From: Exiguobacterium sibiricum 7-3
GTDB lineage: Bacteria; Bacillota; Bacilli; Exiguobacteriales; Exiguobacteriaceae
NCBI RefSeq assembly: GCF_000620865.1
Contig: NZ_KK211190.1
Coordinates: forward strand, 124,001-188,000
Direction of reading: 5' to 3'
Length of the DNA: 64,000 bases
Shown here: piece by piece, positions 13,047 to 31,418 of the stretch
Layout of the letters: each line of letters opens with the position of its first letter
Position numbering within the stretch: the stretch's first letter is position 1
Translations under genes and position numbers: made by a program
The notes under the pieces: generated by a model
The model's input: the letters and a program-made list of their open reading frames with translations, nothing else
Databases searched by the model: none
What the model was told of the DNA's origin: nothing

Positions 13047-14603
13047 TTAGAACACTTTTGTCGTCCACGATTCACAATTCCATAAATCCGTTGCGACGGC
13101 TTCATAAAATTCAGGTTCATGTGAGATCAACAGAACTGTTCCTTTATATTCCTGTAACGCACGTTTGAGCTCTTCTTTTGCTTCGACGTCCAAGTGGTTG
13201 GTCGGCTCATCAAGAACCAGAATGTTGGATTCCGTGTTCATCAATTTACAAAGGCGGACTTTCGCCTTTTCCCCACCACTGAGGACTTCGATTTTCGATT
13301 CGATGTGTTTTGTCATCAGACCACATTTCGCGAGCATCGCCCGGACCTGTTGCTGTGTCAGAGAAGGGAACGTACCCCAGATCTCTTCAATACACGTGTT
13401 CGAATTTTTTTCTTTAATTTCCTGTTCGAAGTAGCCGATGTGAAGATTTTCCCCGCGTTCGACTGTACCGGAAACCGAAGGAATCTCACCAAGCAGACTT
13501 TTGAGTAACGTCGACTTCCCGATACCATTTGCCCCGTGTAAGGCGATTTTTTGACCGCGCTCAATCATCAAGTCAAGCGGACGGGAAAGTGGCTCATCGT
13601 ATCCGATGACAAGTCCTTTCGCTTCAAACATCAACTTACTTGGTGTCCGGGCTGTCTGGAAATGAAACTCAGGTTTCGGACGTTCCTGCGCGAGTTCGAT
13701 GACATCCATCTTATCGAGTTTCTTCTGACGGGACATCGCCATGTTACGTGTCGAGACACGGGCCTTATTTCGGGCGACGAAGTCTTTCAGCTCGGAAATT
13801 TCCTGCTGTTGACGTTTAAAGGCTGACTCATGTTGCTTCTTCTTCGCCTCATGGACAGTCAAGAAATTGTCGTAATCACCGACGTAACGATTGAGTCCTT
13901 GGTTTTCCATATGGTAAATCAAGTTGATGACACTGTTCAAGAATGGAATGTCGTGTGAAATCAAAATGAACGCATTTTCATAATCATTGAGGTAACGTTT
14001 CAACCATTCGATGTGCTGGACATCAAGATAGTTGGTCGGCTCATCGAGTAACAGGATGTCTGGTTTTTCAAGCAACAGTTTCGCGAGCAGGATTTTTGTC
14101 CGCTGACCGCCGCTGAGTTCCTGGACATCACGATCGAGACCGATCTCATCAAGACCTAGACCGCGTGCAATTTCTTCGACTTTCGCATCAATCGTATAAA
14201 AATCATTGTTCGTCAAGATGTCTTGTAAGACTCCGACTTCTTCTAACATTTTTTCGAGTTCGTCTGGTTCGACTTCGCCCATTTTTGTATACAAATCATT
14301 AATCTCCTGTTCGATGTCGAACAAGTATTGGAACGCTCCTTTTAAGGCATCACGAATCGTGAGTCCTTTGGAAAGAACAGCATGCTGATCCAGGTAGCCG
14401 ACGCGGACATGTTTCGCCCATTCGACTTTACCTTCGTCTGGTTCGAGCTGTGAAGTAATGATGTTCATGAACGTCGATTTACCCTCACCGTTTGCTCCGA
14501 CGAGACCGATGTGTTCCCCTTTTAACAGACGAAACGAGACATCTTCGAAAATCGCACGATCGCCAAAACCATGGCTTAAGTTTGATACCGTTAAAATACT
14601 CAT
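13047..14603 (-). CDS. yfmM: ABC-F family ATPase, YfmM-like
   Basis: 518 residues and no membrane segments. Two ABC ATPase domains: Walker A GANGEGKST and GANGIGKST, signatures LSGGQRTK and LSGGEKAK, Walker B ILLLDEPTN and ILVLDEPTN. The P-site tRNA-interaction linker lies between them (about 235-310, rich in Lys/Gln). ABC-F proteins act on ribosomes rather than in transport. Length and the opening MSILTVSNLSHGFGDRAIF match Bacillus subtilis YfmM as I recall it; whether it gives antibiotic resistance or relieves stalling cannot be told. It lies 27 bp downstream of a 57-residue basic protein gene on the same strand. Confidence 0.88.
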   Translation of the reverse strand: MSILTVSNLSHGFGDRAIFEDVSFRLLKGEHIGLVGANGEGKSTFMNIITSQLEPDEGKVEWAKHVRVGYLDQHAVLSKGLTIRDALKGAFQYLFDIEQEINDLYTKMGEVEPDELEKMLEEVGVLQDILTNNDFYTIDAKVEEIARGLGLDEIGLDRDVQELSGGQRTKILLAKLLLEKPDILLLDEPTNYLDVQHIEWLKRYLNDYENAFILISHDIPFLNSVINLIYHMENQGLNRYVGDYDNFLTVHEAKKKQHESAFKRQQQEISELKDFVARNKARVSTRNMAMSRQKKLDKMDVIELAQERPKPEFHFQTARTPSKLMFEAKGLVIGYDEPLSRPLDLMIERGQKIALHGANGIGKSTLLKSLLGEIPSVSGTVERGENLHIGYFEQEIKEKNSNTCIEEIWGTFPSLTQQQVRAMLAKCGLMTKHIESKIEVLSGGEKAKVRLCKLMNTESNILVLDEPTNHLDVEAKEELKRALQEYKGTVLLISHEPEFYEAVATDLWNCESWTTKVF

Positions 14604-14630
14604 AGTTACTCCCTTATTTCACGAATTCAA

Positions 14631-14804
14631 TTAGACGCCTGTCCGTTTTTTCTGGTTGTTCGTTTTTTTCGTTTTTTGGCTTGTCATTTGTTTTGTTTCT
14701 GTTCCGCGCAAACCGGTCGGACGTTTTGTCTGTGACTGTTTTTTTGCTTTTAATTGTTCAATCATTGCTTCTTGAAGAGACAATTTTTTTGGTTGTTCGC
14801 TCAT
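14631..14804 (-). CDS. Small basic hypothetical protein upstream of the ABC-F gene
   Basis: 57 residues, MSEQPKKLSLQEAMIEQL followed by a tail very rich in Lys, Gln and Thr and ending RTGV. Start ATG at 14804 with AGGTG upstream; stop at 14631. About 30% of residues are Lys or Arg, and the C-terminal 35 residues are probably disordered. No domain recognised. Position 27 bp before the ABC-F ATPase and the basic composition suggest it could bind RNA or ribosomes, or serve as a leader peptide, but this is inference. Confidence 0.65.
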   Translation of the reverse strand: MSEQPKKLSLQEAMIEQLKAKKQSQTKRPTGLRGTETKQMTSQKTKKTNNQKKRTGV

Positions 14805-14890
14805 GTGTGTTCACCTCGATTAATTCGTTCTTATCCTCTAGTATGCCAAAAAAAACGTGTCTTGAAAACGAACTATACTTAATTCTTTCA

Positions 14891-15337
14891 TTAAATGATT
14901 TCTTCACCTAAATAAATCACGTAACAATTTCGGTCTAAATCGACTTCACAACTATCTCTTTCAAAGACGCCGTGATCGGGTACGCTCAGTTTATCCTTAA
15001 CCAAAAAGCGCATGGCCTGGATATGATTCGGGACGGTCACCGTCTTGATGACCGGATGTGAAGCACTTTCCTGGAAGCGTCGGAATTCGAGATGAATTTG
15101 GTGCGGCGGATAAACACGGTCCGCCGGATCACGGGGGGAGGCTTCGACATGATCGACGATTAACTGGTCGTATTCACCATCCATTTCATTGGAGCGCAAC
15201 TCATACAAGTGACCTTCGATGATATGAAATTCGCAGAGTTGATGCGCAATGATTTCATCCGGTTCAATGGCAAAGCGGCTGTATTGATAAATGGATTTGA
15301 ATTCATTTTGATCTTCGACATAATAGGCGAGTGACAT
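14891..15337 (-). CDS. Hypothetical cytoplasmic protein
   Basis: 148 residues starting MSLAYYVEDQNEFKSIYQYS; ATG with GAGGA upstream. It is acidic and mixed alpha/beta in pattern, with no signal peptide, membrane segment or cysteine cluster. Segments EPDEIIAHQLCEF and VYPPHQIHLEFRRF are distinctive, but I do not recognise a family. It is transcribed away from the lipoprotein operon; the divergent spacer has a 9-bp inverted repeat AAAAAAGTT/AACTTTTTT (15384-15416). Confidence 0.6.
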   Translation of the reverse strand: MSLAYYVEDQNEFKSIYQYSRFAIEPDEIIAHQLCEFHIIEGHLYELRSNEMDGEYDQLIVDHVEASPRDPADRVYPPHQIHLEFRRFQESASHPVIKTVTVPNHIQAMRFLVKDKLSVPDHGVFERDSCEVDLDRNCYVIYLGEEII

Positions 15338-15383
15338 TTGATTTCCTCCTCAAGTCTTCTTCGTTATTCTACTGGCCTTAACA

Positions 15384-15416
15384 AAAAAAGTTCCGGAACG
15401 ACTTAGAAACTTTTTT
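15384..15416. repeat. Inverted repeat between divergent genes
   Basis: AAAAAAGTT and AACTTTTTT separated by 15 bases in the 133-base gap between divergent genes. It could be an operator or a fold in either leader. Confidence 0.35.
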
Positions 15417-15470
15417 GGTGGAAAAAGCGTATACTTAGAATAACAAATTGTGATGAAAGGGGTATGCGAT

Positions 15471-15809
15471 GTGAGTTGGATGAAGCAGGCGACACTTGCA
15501 GCTACGTTGTTGATCGGAACGACGCTCAGCGGATGTGGATCGGACAATGCAAAGGCGGAACGTCCGGATGATCCGGATTGTGATGATTATGAATATGATA
15601 ATGATGAGGGTGTTTGGTATTGTGATGATTCAAGCTCGACGCACTCCGGGTTCTTTTACTGGGGAGGAAGTTACTTTGCTTCGCGCGCCTTGATGCATAG
15701 TGCAATGCGAACGAAAGGATATACACCCCGATCAAAGGATGTCAAAAGTTATAATAGCAAGACAAAAGGATTCGGGACGGGATCATCGTCCGGCTTCTTC
15801 GGCGGATGA
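15471..15809 (+). CDS. Small Asp-rich lipoprotein of the amidoligase operon
   Basis: 112 residues starting at GTG 15471, eight bases after AAAGGGG. The signal peptide ends in lipobox LSGC, so the mature protein is lipid-anchored at about Cys23. The mature part opens with an Asp/Glu cluster (PDDPDCDDYEYDNDEG) with two Cys, then a Trp/Tyr-rich stretch (FFYWGGSYF), and ends GTGSSSGFFGG. This resembles YgiB-type partners of glutathionylspermidine synthase-like proteins. It overlaps the next gene by 4 bp (ATGA), implying translational coupling. The C-terminal Gly-Gly tail could be an acceptor for ligation; this is inference. Confidence 0.7.
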   Translation: MSWMKQATLAATLLIGTTLSGCGSDNAKAERPDDPDCDDYEYDNDEGVWYCDDSSSTHSGFFYWGGSYFASRALMHSAMRTKGYTPRSKDVKSYNSKTKGFGTGSSSGFFGG

Positions 15810-17032
15810 GGACGCGACAGGAATTGTACGGGGACATCGACGCTTTTTGGGATGTACTGGATGGCGAAATTTACGCCTTGGCGGAAGTAATGCCCGTTTC
15901 GAAAGAGACCATTCAAGAATTGCGGACAGCGGCACGAGAAGCGTATACCATCTTTGAAAAAGTGATTCCGATTCTTTGGACGATGGATGACGACGGATTG
16001 ATTGAACTCGGTTTTCCGAAGGCAGCTTTACCGTTTTTACGGTTACAGACGATGCGTCCTTTATCAGTTATCAGCCGCTTTGATTTCATTGTCACAGACA
16101 AACGGATATCGGTCATGGAATGGAACGCGGATACGCCGACGTTTATTAAGGAATCGTTTGAAGTCAACGACCGGATTGCGCGAAAAGTGGGTTTTGGGCC
16201 ACTCAATGACGGACAAGCGAAACAGTTGGCGGACAGCGTGGATCGTGCGGTGAAGGCGGCAAGTCATCGGATTCGTCACGATCAGCCGCACGTCGTCTTC
16301 ACTTCACATGGAGACAACATCGAAGACCGGTGGACGACAGAGTATCTGCAACAATTTGTTGCCGGTGCTACATACTGTCCTCTTGACGAACTGGAGATAC
16401 GGGCAGAAGATGGATTGTATGACCAACAGGGACGGCGAATCGACATACTGTACCGGCAGACGTTTCCGATTGAGATGGCATTACTCGATCGCGATGAAGA
16501 CGGAAAAGAACTGGGACGCTTGTTGCTTCAGCTCGTCGAGATGGGGTTGCTTGAAATCATCAATCCACCGTCCGCCTTCCTGATGCAGGCAAAGTCGGTC
16601 TTGGCATTGATTTGGCTTTTACATGAAACAGACCATCCTTATTTGACCGAGCACGATCATGAGGTCATTGCTCAGTACTTCTTGCCGACCTATTTGAGTC
16701 CGGAGCCGTTTTTACGTCAGAATCAAGCTTTCGTCGAAAAACCGATCTTTGGACGAGAAGGGGATACGGTCACTGTCCATCAAGGGGACGGGAATGTCCT
16801 GTTCAGCAACGAACAACGTTCATTCAGCAATCAGTCGGCCGTGTATCAACGTTATCAGGAATTACCGATGTGGTCATTAGAAAATGAAACAGAAGTCGCA
16901 TATATGTTTGGTGTGTTTGTTCTTGGCGGGCGACCAAGTGCTGTCGGGGTGCGGGCAGGTGAACGGATCACGGGGAATCGATCTTATTTCTTACCGATCG
17001 GACAACGTGAAAATCAAGAGGAGGATGGATGA
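15806..17032 (+). CDS. Glutathionylspermidine synthase-like ATP-grasp amidoligase (YgiC/YjfC type)
   Basis: 408 residues. Characteristic GspS-family elements: RFDFIVTDKRISVMEWNADTPT with FIKESFEVND (about 90-120), GDNIEDRWTTEYLQ and FVEKPIFGREG in the ATP-grasp core, and ERSYFLPI-like ends (NRSYFLPIGQ). It has only the synthetase half and no amidase domain. The family forms an amide bond between a carboxylate (peptide C-terminus or glutathione) and an amine using ATP. Most Bacillota lack glutathione, and bacillithiol genes are present at 31 kb, so glutathione is unlikely as substrate. The adjacent lipoprotein or a polyamine/peptide is more plausible. Confidence 0.8.
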   Translation: MRTRQELYGDIDAFWDVLDGEIYALAEVMPVSKETIQELRTAAREAYTIFEKVIPILWTMDDDGLIELGFPKAALPFLRLQTMRPLSVISRFDFIVTDKRISVMEWNADTPTFIKESFEVNDRIARKVGFGPLNDGQAKQLADSVDRAVKAASHRIRHDQPHVVFTSHGDNIEDRWTTEYLQQFVAGATYCPLDELEIRAEDGLYDQQGRRIDILYRQTFPIEMALLDRDEDGKELGRLLLQLVEMGLLEIINPPSAFLMQAKSVLALIWLLHETDHPYLTEHDHEVIAQYFLPTYLSPEPFLRQNQAFVEKPIFGREGDTVTVHQGDGNVLFSNEQRSFSNQSAVYQRYQELPMWSLENETEVAYMFGVFVLGGRPSAVGVRAGERITGNRSYFLPIGQRENQEEDG

Positions 17033-17667
17033 TGAAAGCAGCTATTTTAGGAGCAACCGGTTTAGTGGGGCAAGAACTGGTCGATCAACTATTGGCGCAT
17101 GATGAGTATCAAGAAGTACATGTTCTCGTACGTCGTCCGATGAATCGATTTCATCAAAAACTCGAAGAATGGGTGATTGATTTTGATCATGTGACGGAAA
17201 TCGAATTACCGGAAGTGGATCATGTTTACTGTGCACTAGGGACAACGATTAAACAGGCCGGATCGCAAGAAGCGTTTCGTCTCGTAGATTACACATATCC
17301 AATCGAGGTGGGACGAGAATTGCTTGATCTGGGGGCCACTCGATTTGCTCTGATTTCAGCACTCGGCGCCCACCCGAACGCGAAAACATTTTATAACCGC
17401 GTCAAAGGGGATGCGGAAAATGGATTACGTGTACTCGGTTACGATGCCTTACTTATTTTCCGACCTTCATTATTATTAGGCGAACGGGATGAATTCCGAT
17501 TCGGCGAACAGGCGGCGGCCCGGGTATCGACCGTGTTGCGTCCATTGTTGCGACGCAGCCCGTACGCACCGATTGAAGCGGCGAAGGTCGCACAGGCGAT
17601 GATTCACCATACGTTGCATGAACCGCCGGGAGTAACGATTGTTGAATCAAAAGAGATGCAGACATGA
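17029..17667 (+). CDS. NAD(P)-binding Rossmann protein, HTATIP2-like SDR
   Basis: 212 residues. The N-terminus KAAILGATGLVGQELV holds the GxxGxxG dinucleotide-binding loop; FALISALGAHPNAKTFYNRVKGDAE gives the Ser/Tyr-x3-Lys-like catalytic area of atypical SDRs, and LLIFRPSLLLGERDE matches oxidoreductase HTATIP2/YbjT-type proteins. Substrate unknown. Start ATG at 17029 overlaps the upstream stop, with GAGGAGGA before it (a second ATG follows at 17032). It closes the lipoprotein-amidoligase operon, though a general reductase with no role in that pathway remains possible. Confidence 0.75.
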   Translation: MMKAAILGATGLVGQELVDQLLAHDEYQEVHVLVRRPMNRFHQKLEEWVIDFDHVTEIELPEVDHVYCALGTTIKQAGSQEAFRLVDYTYPIEVGRELLDLGATRFALISALGAHPNAKTFYNRVKGDAENGLRVLGYDALLIFRPSLLLGERDEFRFGEQAAARVSTVLRPLLRRSPYAPIEAAKVAQAMIHHTLHEPPGVTIVESKEMQT

Positions 17668-17697
17668 GTGAGCGGATTTTTCGTATCACTCTTTTTT
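17668..17697 (+). terminator. Terminator after the SDR gene
   Basis: GAGTGA/TCACTC stem with seven T, directly after the stop codon. Confidence 0.65.
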
Positions 17698-17755
17698 TGT
17701 GTCCAGAAATTAATATTTGACTCATCAAATGATTTACGGTTGAATGATATAGTGC

Positions 17756-17785
17756 TGTCTCATAAACAAAAAAAGAAGTGAGACA
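17756..17785 (+). repeat. Inverted repeat in the leader of the peptide transporter gene
   Basis: TGTCTCA and TGAGACA separated by 16 A-rich bases, about 120 bases before the transporter start. Possible operator or leader hairpin; no known riboswitch recognised. Confidence 0.3.
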
Positions 17786-17904
17786 ATTCAGGCAAAACAG
17801 TGTATTTGCGTTCAATTGGTTCGTTCATGCTTATCGTTTGGGGAAAGCGGGAAAAAGATTGGACAATGTGCACATATCGAAGGTAGACGAAAGGAGCCGT
17901 TCAT

Positions 17905-19398
17905 ATGGCAGAGTTTGATCGCGATCAGGTCTACAAGACTGTTCCGCAAAAAGGATTCTTCGGAAATCCAAAAGGACTGTTCACGTTATTCTTTACTGAG
18001 TTTTGGGAGCGATTCTCCTACTACGGGATGCGTGCCATCCTCATCTTCTACATGTATGATTCAGTTGCTAACGGTGGTCTTGGAATCGACAAGCCGACTG
18101 CTGCATCAATCATGGCAGTATACGGTTCACTCGTTTACATGTCCGGTATCATCGGTGGTTGGGTCGCTGACCGACTGCTCGGTACTTCCCGGACCGTTTT
18201 CTATGGTGGAGTGCTTATCATGCTCGGACATATCGTCCTTGCGTTACCGGCCGGAATCACGGCATTGTTTATCTCAATGGGATTGATCGTCATCGGAACA
18301 GGATTCTTGAAACCAAACGTTTCGAACATCGTCGGTGATCTGTACAGCAAAACGGATAACCGCCGTGACGCTGGATTCAGTATCTTCTACATGGGAATCA
18401 ATGCCGGTGCCTTCCTGGCCCCGTTGATTGTTGGTAAAGTGTCGGACTCAGCAGGATATCACGCTGGTTTTGCACTCGCTGCAATCGGAATGTTCTTAGG
18501 TCTGATCGTCTTCGTCTTGACGAAGAAAAAGAACTTGGGACAAGCGGGAACATACGTCTTGAACCCGCTTGAAGGAAATGAACGGAAACGATTCTTTACG
18601 ATCGCAGCCGTTGTCGTTATCGTGCTTGCAGTTCTTGGAACGATTGCATCAATGACAGGATTATTGACAATCAGTCGCTTCACGCTTATGGTCACGTTCC
18701 TCGGAATCTTGATTCCGATTGCTTACTTCACCTTCATGTTGCGGAGTCCAAAAATTACGGATGATGAACGTTCGCGTCTGCTTGCGTATATTCCGCTCTT
18801 CATTGCGGCGGCAGTATTCTGGGCGATTCAAGAACAGGGTTCATATGTTCTTTCGATTTTTGCAGATGAACGGACAAATCTTTCGTTCCTCGGCTTTGGT
18901 CTGGAACCGGCCTTCTTCCAGTCCCTGAACCCACTGTTTATCATCGTCTTGGCACCTGTATTTGCAAGCTTTTGGGTGAAACTCGGTGATCGTCAACCAA
19001 CAACAATGCAGAAGTTTTCGTTTGGTTTAGTATTTGCCGGATTGTCATTTATCGTCATGATGTTACCGGGCTTGTTGTTCGGAACGGATACGACGGTCAG
19101 TCCGCTTTGGCTTGCGCTCAGCTTCTTCCTCGTTGTTATCGGTGAGTTGTTCTTATCACCGGTCGGATTATCGGCAACGACGAAATTGGCACCGGCTGCC
19201 TTCTCGGCACAGACGATGAGTTTGTGGTTCTTGACGAATGCGACCGGACAAGCCGTCAATGCTCAAATCGTAAAATATTATGGAGCAGATACCGAAGTGG
19301 CATACTTCGGAATTACAGGACTTGTTGCCATCATTCTTGGGGTTATCCTGTTCGCTTTCGCACCAAAACTTCAAAAATATATGCGGGGTATTCGTTAA
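17905..19398 (+). CDS. Proton-dependent oligopeptide transporter (POT/PTR2 family)
   Basis: 497 residues with 12-14 transmembrane helices. The family signature is FFTEFWERFSYYGMRAILIFYMY (E-x-x-E-R-F-x-Y-Y-G type, about residues 29-52), with the second signature near FSIFYMGINAGAFLAPL. It imports di- and tripeptides with protons, like lactococcal DtpT and Bacillus YclF. Start ATG with AAAGGAG. Monocistronic, with its own terminator. It fits a proteolytic lifestyle together with the secreted M6 protease, but the two are not linked genetically. Confidence 0.92.
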   Translation: MAEFDRDQVYKTVPQKGFFGNPKGLFTLFFTEFWERFSYYGMRAILIFYMYDSVANGGLGIDKPTAASIMAVYGSLVYMSGIIGGWVADRLLGTSRTVFYGGVLIMLGHIVLALPAGITALFISMGLIVIGTGFLKPNVSNIVGDLYSKTDNRRDAGFSIFYMGINAGAFLAPLIVGKVSDSAGYHAGFALAAIGMFLGLIVFVLTKKKNLGQAGTYVLNPLEGNERKRFFTIAAVVVIVLAVLGTIASMTGLLTISRFTLMVTFLGILIPIAYFTFMLRSPKITDDERSRLLAYIPLFIAAAVFWAIQEQGSYVLSIFADERTNLSFLGFGLEPAFFQSLNPLFIIVLAPVFASFWVKLGDRQPTTMQKFSFGLVFAGLSFIVMMLPGLLFGTDTTVSPLWLALSFFLVVIGELFLSPVGLSATTKLAPAAFSAQTMSLWFLTNATGQAVNAQIVKYYGADTEVAYFGITGLVAIILGVILFAFAPKLQKYMRGIR

Positions 19399-30758: not shown

Positions 30759-31418
30759 TCATAATGGGTAATGATAATAGCGTTCTTTGACGAGCAAATC
30801 ACGGATGTTCGAGTCTTCTGAGATGACTTTCATCAAACCGCCTGTTTGCGAGGCATGTGCTTGAAGGGCTGCAATTTTTTGATCGGTATACGCACTGACA
30901 TCATGGATGAACGTTCCTTCACCGAGTTCGTCACGTGTATTGTTAGCGAAGGCAACCGCTAAAAATTCAGGACGCTGACTTTCGTCGATCGCACGAAGCG
31001 CCCGGACGACGGCACGTGCTGTTGCTTCGTGATCCGGATGGACGGCATATCCCGGATAAAATGAAATCACCCGTGTCGGTTGCGTTTTCGTAATCAATTG
31101 TCCAATCCGTTCAGCAAGCATCGCTTCATCTTCGAATTCGACTGTTTTGTCGCGAAGTCCCCACATTTGTAAATCGGAAATCTTCATTTTTTCAGATGCG
31201 GCAATCAGTTCACGTTTGCGGATTGTTGCGAGCTCCTCGCGGTTCGTAAAGACAGGACGACCCATGTTGCGTCCCATTTCACCGAGTGTCAGGCAGGCAT
31301 ACGTGACAGGTCCGCGGTTTTCTGCATGTTCGATAATCGTTCCAGCCGAGCTGAACGCTTCATCATCCGGGTGAGGGAAGATGACGAGTAGATGATCTTG
31401 TTCGTTGTAAGCCATCAT
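30759..31418 (-). CDS. bshB2: Bacillithiol biosynthesis deacetylase, PIG-L family
   Basis: 219 residues. Zinc-binding motif FPHPDDEAFSSAG near residue 15 and the second ligand in YAVHPDHEATARA. PIG-L/LmbE fold that removes acetate from GlcNAc-malate, the second step of bacillithiol synthesis. Partnered with YojF, which overlaps it by 4 bp, the same pair as Bacillus yojF-bshB2. Two adjacent ATGs (31418, 31415) are possible; the second has better spacing to GAGGAGG. Confidence 0.9.
   Translation of the reverse strand: MMAYNEQDHLLVIFPHPDDEAFSSAGTIIEHAENRGPVTYACLTLGEMGRNMGRPVFTNREELATIRKRELIAASEKMKISDLQMWGLRDKTVEFEDEAMLAERIGQLITKTQPTRVISFYPGYAVHPDHEATARAVVRALRAIDESQRPEFLAVAFANNTRDELGEGTFIHDVSAYTDQKIAALQAHASQTGGLMKVISEDSNIRDLLVKERYYHYPL

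Follow-up and report, generated by a model that had tools for sequence, protein, structure and literature searches.

A lipoprotein with a conserved Gly-Gly tail as a candidate substrate of its neighbouring ATP-grasp ligase in Exiguobacterium

Introduction

In Escherichia coli, the lipoproteins YgiB and YjfM end in RSMGG and HWGG, respectively, and each adjoins its own ATP-grasp ligase, YgiC or YjfC. RefSeq names both enzymes peptide--spermidine ligases, a naming that reportedly goes back to work by Pederick in 2023. In these two pairs (YjfM-YjfC is accompanied by YjfL, a DUF350 protein), the lipoprotein lies directly upstream of the ligase and carries a tail of the form GG[F/Y]G...GG. Operons composed of PspA, DUF350, a GspS-like ATP-grasp ligase and a DUF1190 lipoprotein have also been described and are linked to polyamines (PMC11237479).

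Here, we analyse a related locus in a 64,000-nucleotide stretch of Exiguobacterium sibiricum 7-3 (the window, to which all coordinates refer). Its ligase shares the family and fold of YgiC and YjfC, and its lipoprotein is likewise encoded directly upstream with a tail of the same kind. Unlike the E. coli pairs, it has a lipoprotein that is not detectably of the DUF1190 family, lacks an adjacent DUF350 gene and is followed by an SDR gene. Among the matches listed from open-licence PMC articles, at the level of titles and abstract openings, none proposed the lipoprotein tail as the substrate of the ligase.

The Exiguobacterium locus

The first-pass annotation of the window described overlapping genes joined by ATGA, encoding a small Asp-rich lipoprotein ending in SGFFGG, a GspS-family synthetase without an amidase domain and a Rossmann SDR. 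Each of these descriptions holds (Table 1). The ATGA shared by the lipoprotein stop and the ligase start is kept in all 19 genomes of the genus, and the SDR matches four Pfam families above cut-off (Semialdhyde_dh, NAD_binding_10, NAD_binding_4 and Epimerase). The GTG start of the lipoprotein lies 8 bases downstream of AAAGGGG. Among the matches listed, the window ligase is 95% identical to that of named relatives, E. sibiricum 255-15 included.

Table 1. Features of the lipoprotein-ligase locus and of other genes in the window
Feature	Position	Strand	Remarks
148-aa protein, unnamed family	14891..15337	-	Divergent here; family relatives near the ligase elsewhere in Bacilli
Acidic lipoprotein, 112 aa	15471..15809	+	GTG start; lipobox LSGC (Cys22); C-terminus SGFFGG
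Lipoprotein Asp/Cys core, residues 33-53	15567..15629	+	Conserved in the Exiguobacterium-type sub-group
Lipoprotein C-terminal 14 residues, SGFFGG end	15765..15806	+	Proposed acyl substrate of the ligase
GSP_synth ATP-grasp ligase (YgiC/YjfC type), 408 aa	15806..17032	+	PF03738, 2.3e-54; without amidase domain
SDR / NAD(P)-binding protein	17029..17667 (start 17029/17032)	+	Probably a genus-specific passenger
Terminator-like stem-loop with T-run	17666..17698	+	Begins at the SDR stop; -11 kcal/mol, z -2.5
POT-family peptide:H+ symporter	17905..19398		Downstream of the SDR
BshB2	30759..31418		TIGR04000, 1.4e-87

Four of 200 shuffled sequences fold as well as the stem-loop at the SDR stop, which is absent from the output of the consensus terminator scan; the promoter and terminator scans returned no more sites than they did in shuffled sequence. 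An Rfam search of 14500-18200 gave no match.

Sampling of ligase loci

The ligase was sought in 398 Bacilli genomes and found in 169. From 116 of these, 119 loci were drawn, covering 54 of the 57 ligase-positive genera: 19 from the Exiguobacterium genus, in which all 19 genomes have the ligase, all 19 of its sister genus and 81 chosen to cover other genera. In three of the 19 genus genomes (L009, L011 and L016), the search marks one stop within the matched ligase stretch. A candidate partner was assigned at all 119 loci, with 24 picks set by hand. The uncorrected automatic lipobox rule gives 100 picks at these loci, 78 of them with a GG end and some of them wrong. A lipobox-like motif occurs within the first 60 residues of 108 of the 119 candidates. 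In 111 loci, the partner stop lies at most 320 nt from the ligase; in the other eight it is further upstream, with DUF350 between. Neighbouring families were scored with tblastn (cut-off 1e-3) in the stretches that were read around each ligase.

Conservation of the Gly-Gly tail

The partners at the 119 Bacilli loci end in GG in 99 cases, in Ser in 13, in a single Gly in six and in Asp in one; the terminal GG is thus not universal, as 20 loci end otherwise. When the first locus of each genus is counted, the GG end is present in 46 of 54 genera, whereas shuffled versions of the last 30 residues give an expectation of 3.6 and at most 12 in 5000 simulations. Of the 675 other ORFs of 120 aa or more at the same loci, one has it. 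In right-aligned tails from the 54 genera, the two final positions hold 3.8 and 3.7 bits and the third 2.2; within the last 20 residues, conservation is highest at the Gly-Gly. Further inside the tail, a G-hydrophobic-G motif is found in 49 genera (15.1 by shuffling). Gly/Ser-rich tails are common in the partner set, and four Gly-poor tails keep an FGG or SGG end. Within the genus the Gly-Gly is invariant, and six comparisons, with six of the nine named relatives, give 33 synonymous and 0 nonsynonymous differences in the last 14 codons; the lipoprotein as a whole has a pN/pS of 0.07, compared with 0.21 in the ligase and 0.09 in the SDR. These comparisons lend support to the first-pass proposal that the Gly-Gly C-terminus may be the joining site, for which an alignment of the C-termini in homologous operons had been suggested as the check.

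Tail type switches nine times on a 129-tip ligase tree, and the ligase positions that separate GG from other tails (170, 362, 224, 300, 381 and 168, among others) are confounded by ancestry.

Two types of lipoprotein with one type of tail

All Pfam matches of the window lipoprotein fall below cut-off (DUF2457, E 0.096; LptM, E 0.2). PF06693 (DUF1190) does not match it at E 1 and has 0 matches in the genome. In a profile comparison, alignment between Exiguobacterium-type and DUF1190 lipoproteins is confined to the signal peptide, although remote homology is possible. On these two grounds, membership of the window lipoprotein in the DUF1190 (YgiB/YjfM) family is rejected. What it has in common with DUF1190 lipoproteins is a G-h-G ... 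GG tail and a ligase neighbour, and the YgiB-type connection drawn in the first-pass annotation stands in that respect and not as family membership.

A sub-family model of the Exiguobacterium type, built from ligase neighbours, matches in 66 of the 398 Bacilli genomes. Of these, 64 are ligase-positive, compared with 169 of 398 overall; the matches in the two ligase-negative genomes (G044 and G389) are partial, at 3.2e-4 and 4.6e-4. In the Asp/Cys core, two Cys and one Asp are invariant in all 21 rows of the sub-group alignment. Asp-rich stretches of a different kind occur in other Bacilli partners. DUF1190-type partners share the tail and not the core. The predicted lipoprotein model (mean pLDDT 42, lowest at the last residues) comes from a shallow alignment of 10 sequences and is given no weight.

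Spread beyond Bacilli chromosomes

Sixteen plasmid stretches were read, from 164 and 117 matched records, together with four stretches from 53 phage records with a ligase match, 32 of which are Aeromonas phages (phiAS4 was read), and four of five viral contigs from IMG/VR. On plasmid stretches, GG-ended ligase neighbours occur in Rhizobium, Pseudomonas syringae, Methylobacterium, Sulfitobacter, Tistrella, Roseomonas, Acinetobacter, Deinococcus, Curtobacterium and a B. subtilis plasmid; in Sulfitobacter and Roseomonas the pairing persists in swapped gene order, with the lipoprotein after the ligase. Phage tails with a GG end are found in Bacillus phages FADO and 2S-4 and in Sinorhizobium phage Phosso. 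An Asticcacaulis neighbour ends in CCG, and Ser-ended neighbours occur in two cyanobacteria (GGSSS or GGASS), Tsukamurella and a Geobacillus plasmid. Candidate partners on the four viral contigs end in GGVVS, GSCCS, GGE and GGGGS, none of them a GG end. In the Azospirillum plasmid and Aeromonas phage phiAS4 stretches, no such partner is adjacent to the ligase. The Ser-ended and extended viral tails may mean that the enzyme tolerates other C-termini, that tails are trimmed, or that a modification reading is wrong for those tails.

Several individual arrangements stand out. The ligase-lipoprotein pair of Bacillus phage FADO (L092, 2.9-5.3 kb) and the gene that follows it recur as a very similar block in a B. 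subtilis record classed as a plasmid (L224), where the following gene is annotated as a poly-gamma-glutamate hydrolase. On a Roseomonas plasmid (L219), two ligases side by side precede DUF350 and DUF1190, and a Curtobacterium plasmid (L225) has a GG-ended DUF1190 protein next to a ligase whose annotation is split in two. The viral-contig tail with an SSGGE end (L229) is reminiscent of Pup, which ends in GGE or GGQ.

Ligase family, active-site residues and fold

The single domain match of the window ligase, to GSP_synth, spans residues 19-397 of 408; this full-length match, the catalytic and ATP residues and the absence of an amidase domain place the enzyme in the YgiC/YjfC type. Residues R316, D318, E330, N332, K498, K533 and R598 of E. 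coli Gss, which we take to have catalytic or ATP roles, correspond to R91, D93, E105, N107, K263, K312 and R383 of the window ligase, and each is kept in 135-137 of 137 ligases (Gss included). Gss Ser337 is replaced by Thr112. Glu391 of Gss is a spermidine-site residue (PMC6272389), and its equivalent is kept in 134 of the 137. The Gss spermidine pocket has four acidic residues; two of them, Asp387 and Asp389, are not conserved, and an amine other than spermidine is therefore possible. The Azospirillum ligase has lost five of these eight residues (the seven catalytic or ATP residues and Glu391), and that of phiAS4 has Asp in place of the Glu391 equivalent. The window ligase thus keeps the residues of a peptide--polyamine ligase, an activity that is predicted from its sequence.

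An AlphaFold model of the ligase (14 sequences, mean pLDDT 83) finds its best fold matches in E. coli Gss (TM 0.74) and YjfC; PDB 7uk6 (YjfC) is matched both by sequence and by fold (TM 0.77/0.81). Although alike in fold and catalytic residues, the window ligase differs from Gss in lacking an amidase domain, in having a lipoprotein partner and in residing in a genome without PF04262. No hydrophobic stretch is apparent by eye at its N-terminus, and its action is therefore expected in the cytosol, while export is still incomplete.

The genome contains homologues of AdoMet_dc (speD) and Spermine_synth (speE). In four wider Bacilli stretches (L203, L205, L208 and L209; 18-19.5 kb), no polyamine genes were seen by eye in the ORF lists. 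A search with the glutamate-cysteine ligase family PF04262 gave no match in the genome, and bshB2 is present; glutathione therefore seems an unlikely substrate of the ligase, as the first-pass annotation had argued.

Neighbouring genes

The SDR gene lies next to the ligase in all 19 loci of the genus and near it in 0 of the 100 other Bacilli loci. Every one of the 19 sister-genus genomes has a relative with 50-54% identity away from the ligase; it lies on another contig in 14 and more than 500 kb away on the same contig in five. Because this linkage is confined to the genus, the unit appears to be the lipoprotein-ligase pair, with the SDR probably a genus-specific passenger. On the same linkage, the SDR is rejected as an enzyme of the pathway, and outside the genus the co-occurrence reduces to that of the lipoprotein and the ligase.

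Outside the genus, 80 of the 100 loci have DUF350 near the ligase, compared with none of the 19 inside it; the two DUF350 genes of this genome both lie away from the pair. The operons described in PMC11237479 resemble the present pair in their ligase and lipoprotein, and they differ from this genome in the position of DUF350; the present pair is a relative of those operons with a different lipoprotein. None of the ORFs of at least 80 aa listed around the two DUF350 genes of this genome has a GG end. As the genus also lacks DUF350 beside the pair, a role for DUF350 as a reader of the tail is unneeded.

The unnamed family of about 150 aa, to which the 148-aa protein of the window belongs, occurs near the ligase at 90 of the 119 loci (71 of 100 outside the genus, 19 of 19 inside). 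Its gene is divergent in some other genera as well and co-directional in most. Glu84, Glu131, Asp133, Arg136 and Tyr142 are invariant in an alignment of 37 representatives. Pfam gives no match to the window protein; three Pfam families each match one of the 37 members (E 0.06-0.07), and the best PDB sequence match has E 0.26. At one Bacilli locus (L104; G311 C7:303634-306467), two GSP_synth ligases stand in tandem.

Discussion

On balance, we consider it probable that the lipoprotein and the ligase are a substrate-enzyme pair, in which the ligase joins the tail carboxylate to a polyamine, most likely spermidine. The pairing of a GG-tailed lipoprotein with a relative of spermidine ligases recurs across phyla and phages, and for this reason the tail, judged from sequence comparison, is probably what the ligase modifies. 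In such a mechanism, ATGA coupling may place the two products together, and the cytosolic ligase would bind the flexible C-terminal tail before or during export. With ATP, it would phosphorylate the terminal Gly carboxylate, and the resulting acyl phosphate would be converted to an amide with the polyamine. The lipoprotein's C-terminal glycine would thereby take the role that the C-terminal glycine of glutathione has in Gss, and the product would be a lipid-anchored lipoprotein of the outer leaflet bearing a cationic C-terminal amide. The retained ligase residues and the speD and speE homologues in the genome also favour this proposal. Against it stand the tails that do not end in GG (20 Bacilli loci, the cyanobacteria and the four viral contigs), the nine changes of tail type on the ligase tree, the loss of two pocket aspartates, the lack of polyamine genes in the four ORF lists and the ligases without an adjacent partner; in addition, a ligase in the cytosol would have little time to encounter a lipoprotein that is exported.

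An unlikely alternative is that the ligase makes small peptide-polyamine conjugates and that the lipoprotein functions separately, as an envelope sensor or metal-binding partner, its tail merely docking to the ligase or to another partner. The peptide--spermidine ligase names of YgiC and YjfC are compatible with this, as are the acidic Asp/Cys core and the ligases that have no adjacent partner; in PMC11237479, DUF1190 is termed a metal-chelating lipoprotein in polyamine-linked operons. Docking alone, however, leaves unexplained that the strongest constraint falls on the last two tail residues. Less likely again is a ubiquitin-like or Pup-like reaction that joins the terminal carboxylate to an amine that is not a polyamine, such as a protein lysine, an aminophospholipid or a wall amine. 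The combination of a small GG-ended protein with an ATP-dependent ligase would suit it, as would the loss of the two pocket aspartates and the viral GGE tail, but the near-universal retention of the Glu391 equivalent argues for a polyamine.

That the tail is a structural Gly/Ser-rich extension and that the gene pair is retained for co-regulation only would agree with the abundance of Gly/Ser-rich tails and the occurrence of Ser ends. We regard it as improbable, given the excess of GG ends over shuffled tails, the persistence of GG in Gly-poor tails and a GG end common to two lipoprotein types with no alignment beyond the signal peptide. Least probable by far is the other first-pass suggestion, that Asp side chains serve as acceptors and that the SDR has a part in making or consuming the product. 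The Asp-rich core of the sub-group, the other Asp-rich stretches in Bacilli partners and the genus-wide position of the SDR beside the ligase had favoured it; the comparisons lend neither half support, as the core is missing from DUF1190-type partners that share the tail, and the SDR is linked to the ligase in this genus and in none of the other Bacilli loci.

If tail modification by polyamine is the correct explanation for the pair, it may represent a widespread and unrecognised protein modification: in Bacillota, Pseudomonadota, Deinococcota and some phages, dedicated ATP-grasp ligases would cap exported lipoproteins with a polyamine at their C-terminal Gly-Gly. We put this wider proposal forward tentatively, as a serious possibility; under it, the tail would be the visible feature common to otherwise unlike carrier proteins. 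The YgiC/YjfC peptide--spermidine ligases gain a specific candidate substrate. Should the proposal be true, bacteria and some phages would use a C-terminal Gly-Gly to attach polyamines to lipoproteins of the surface, and polyamine metabolism would be linked to the cell envelope.
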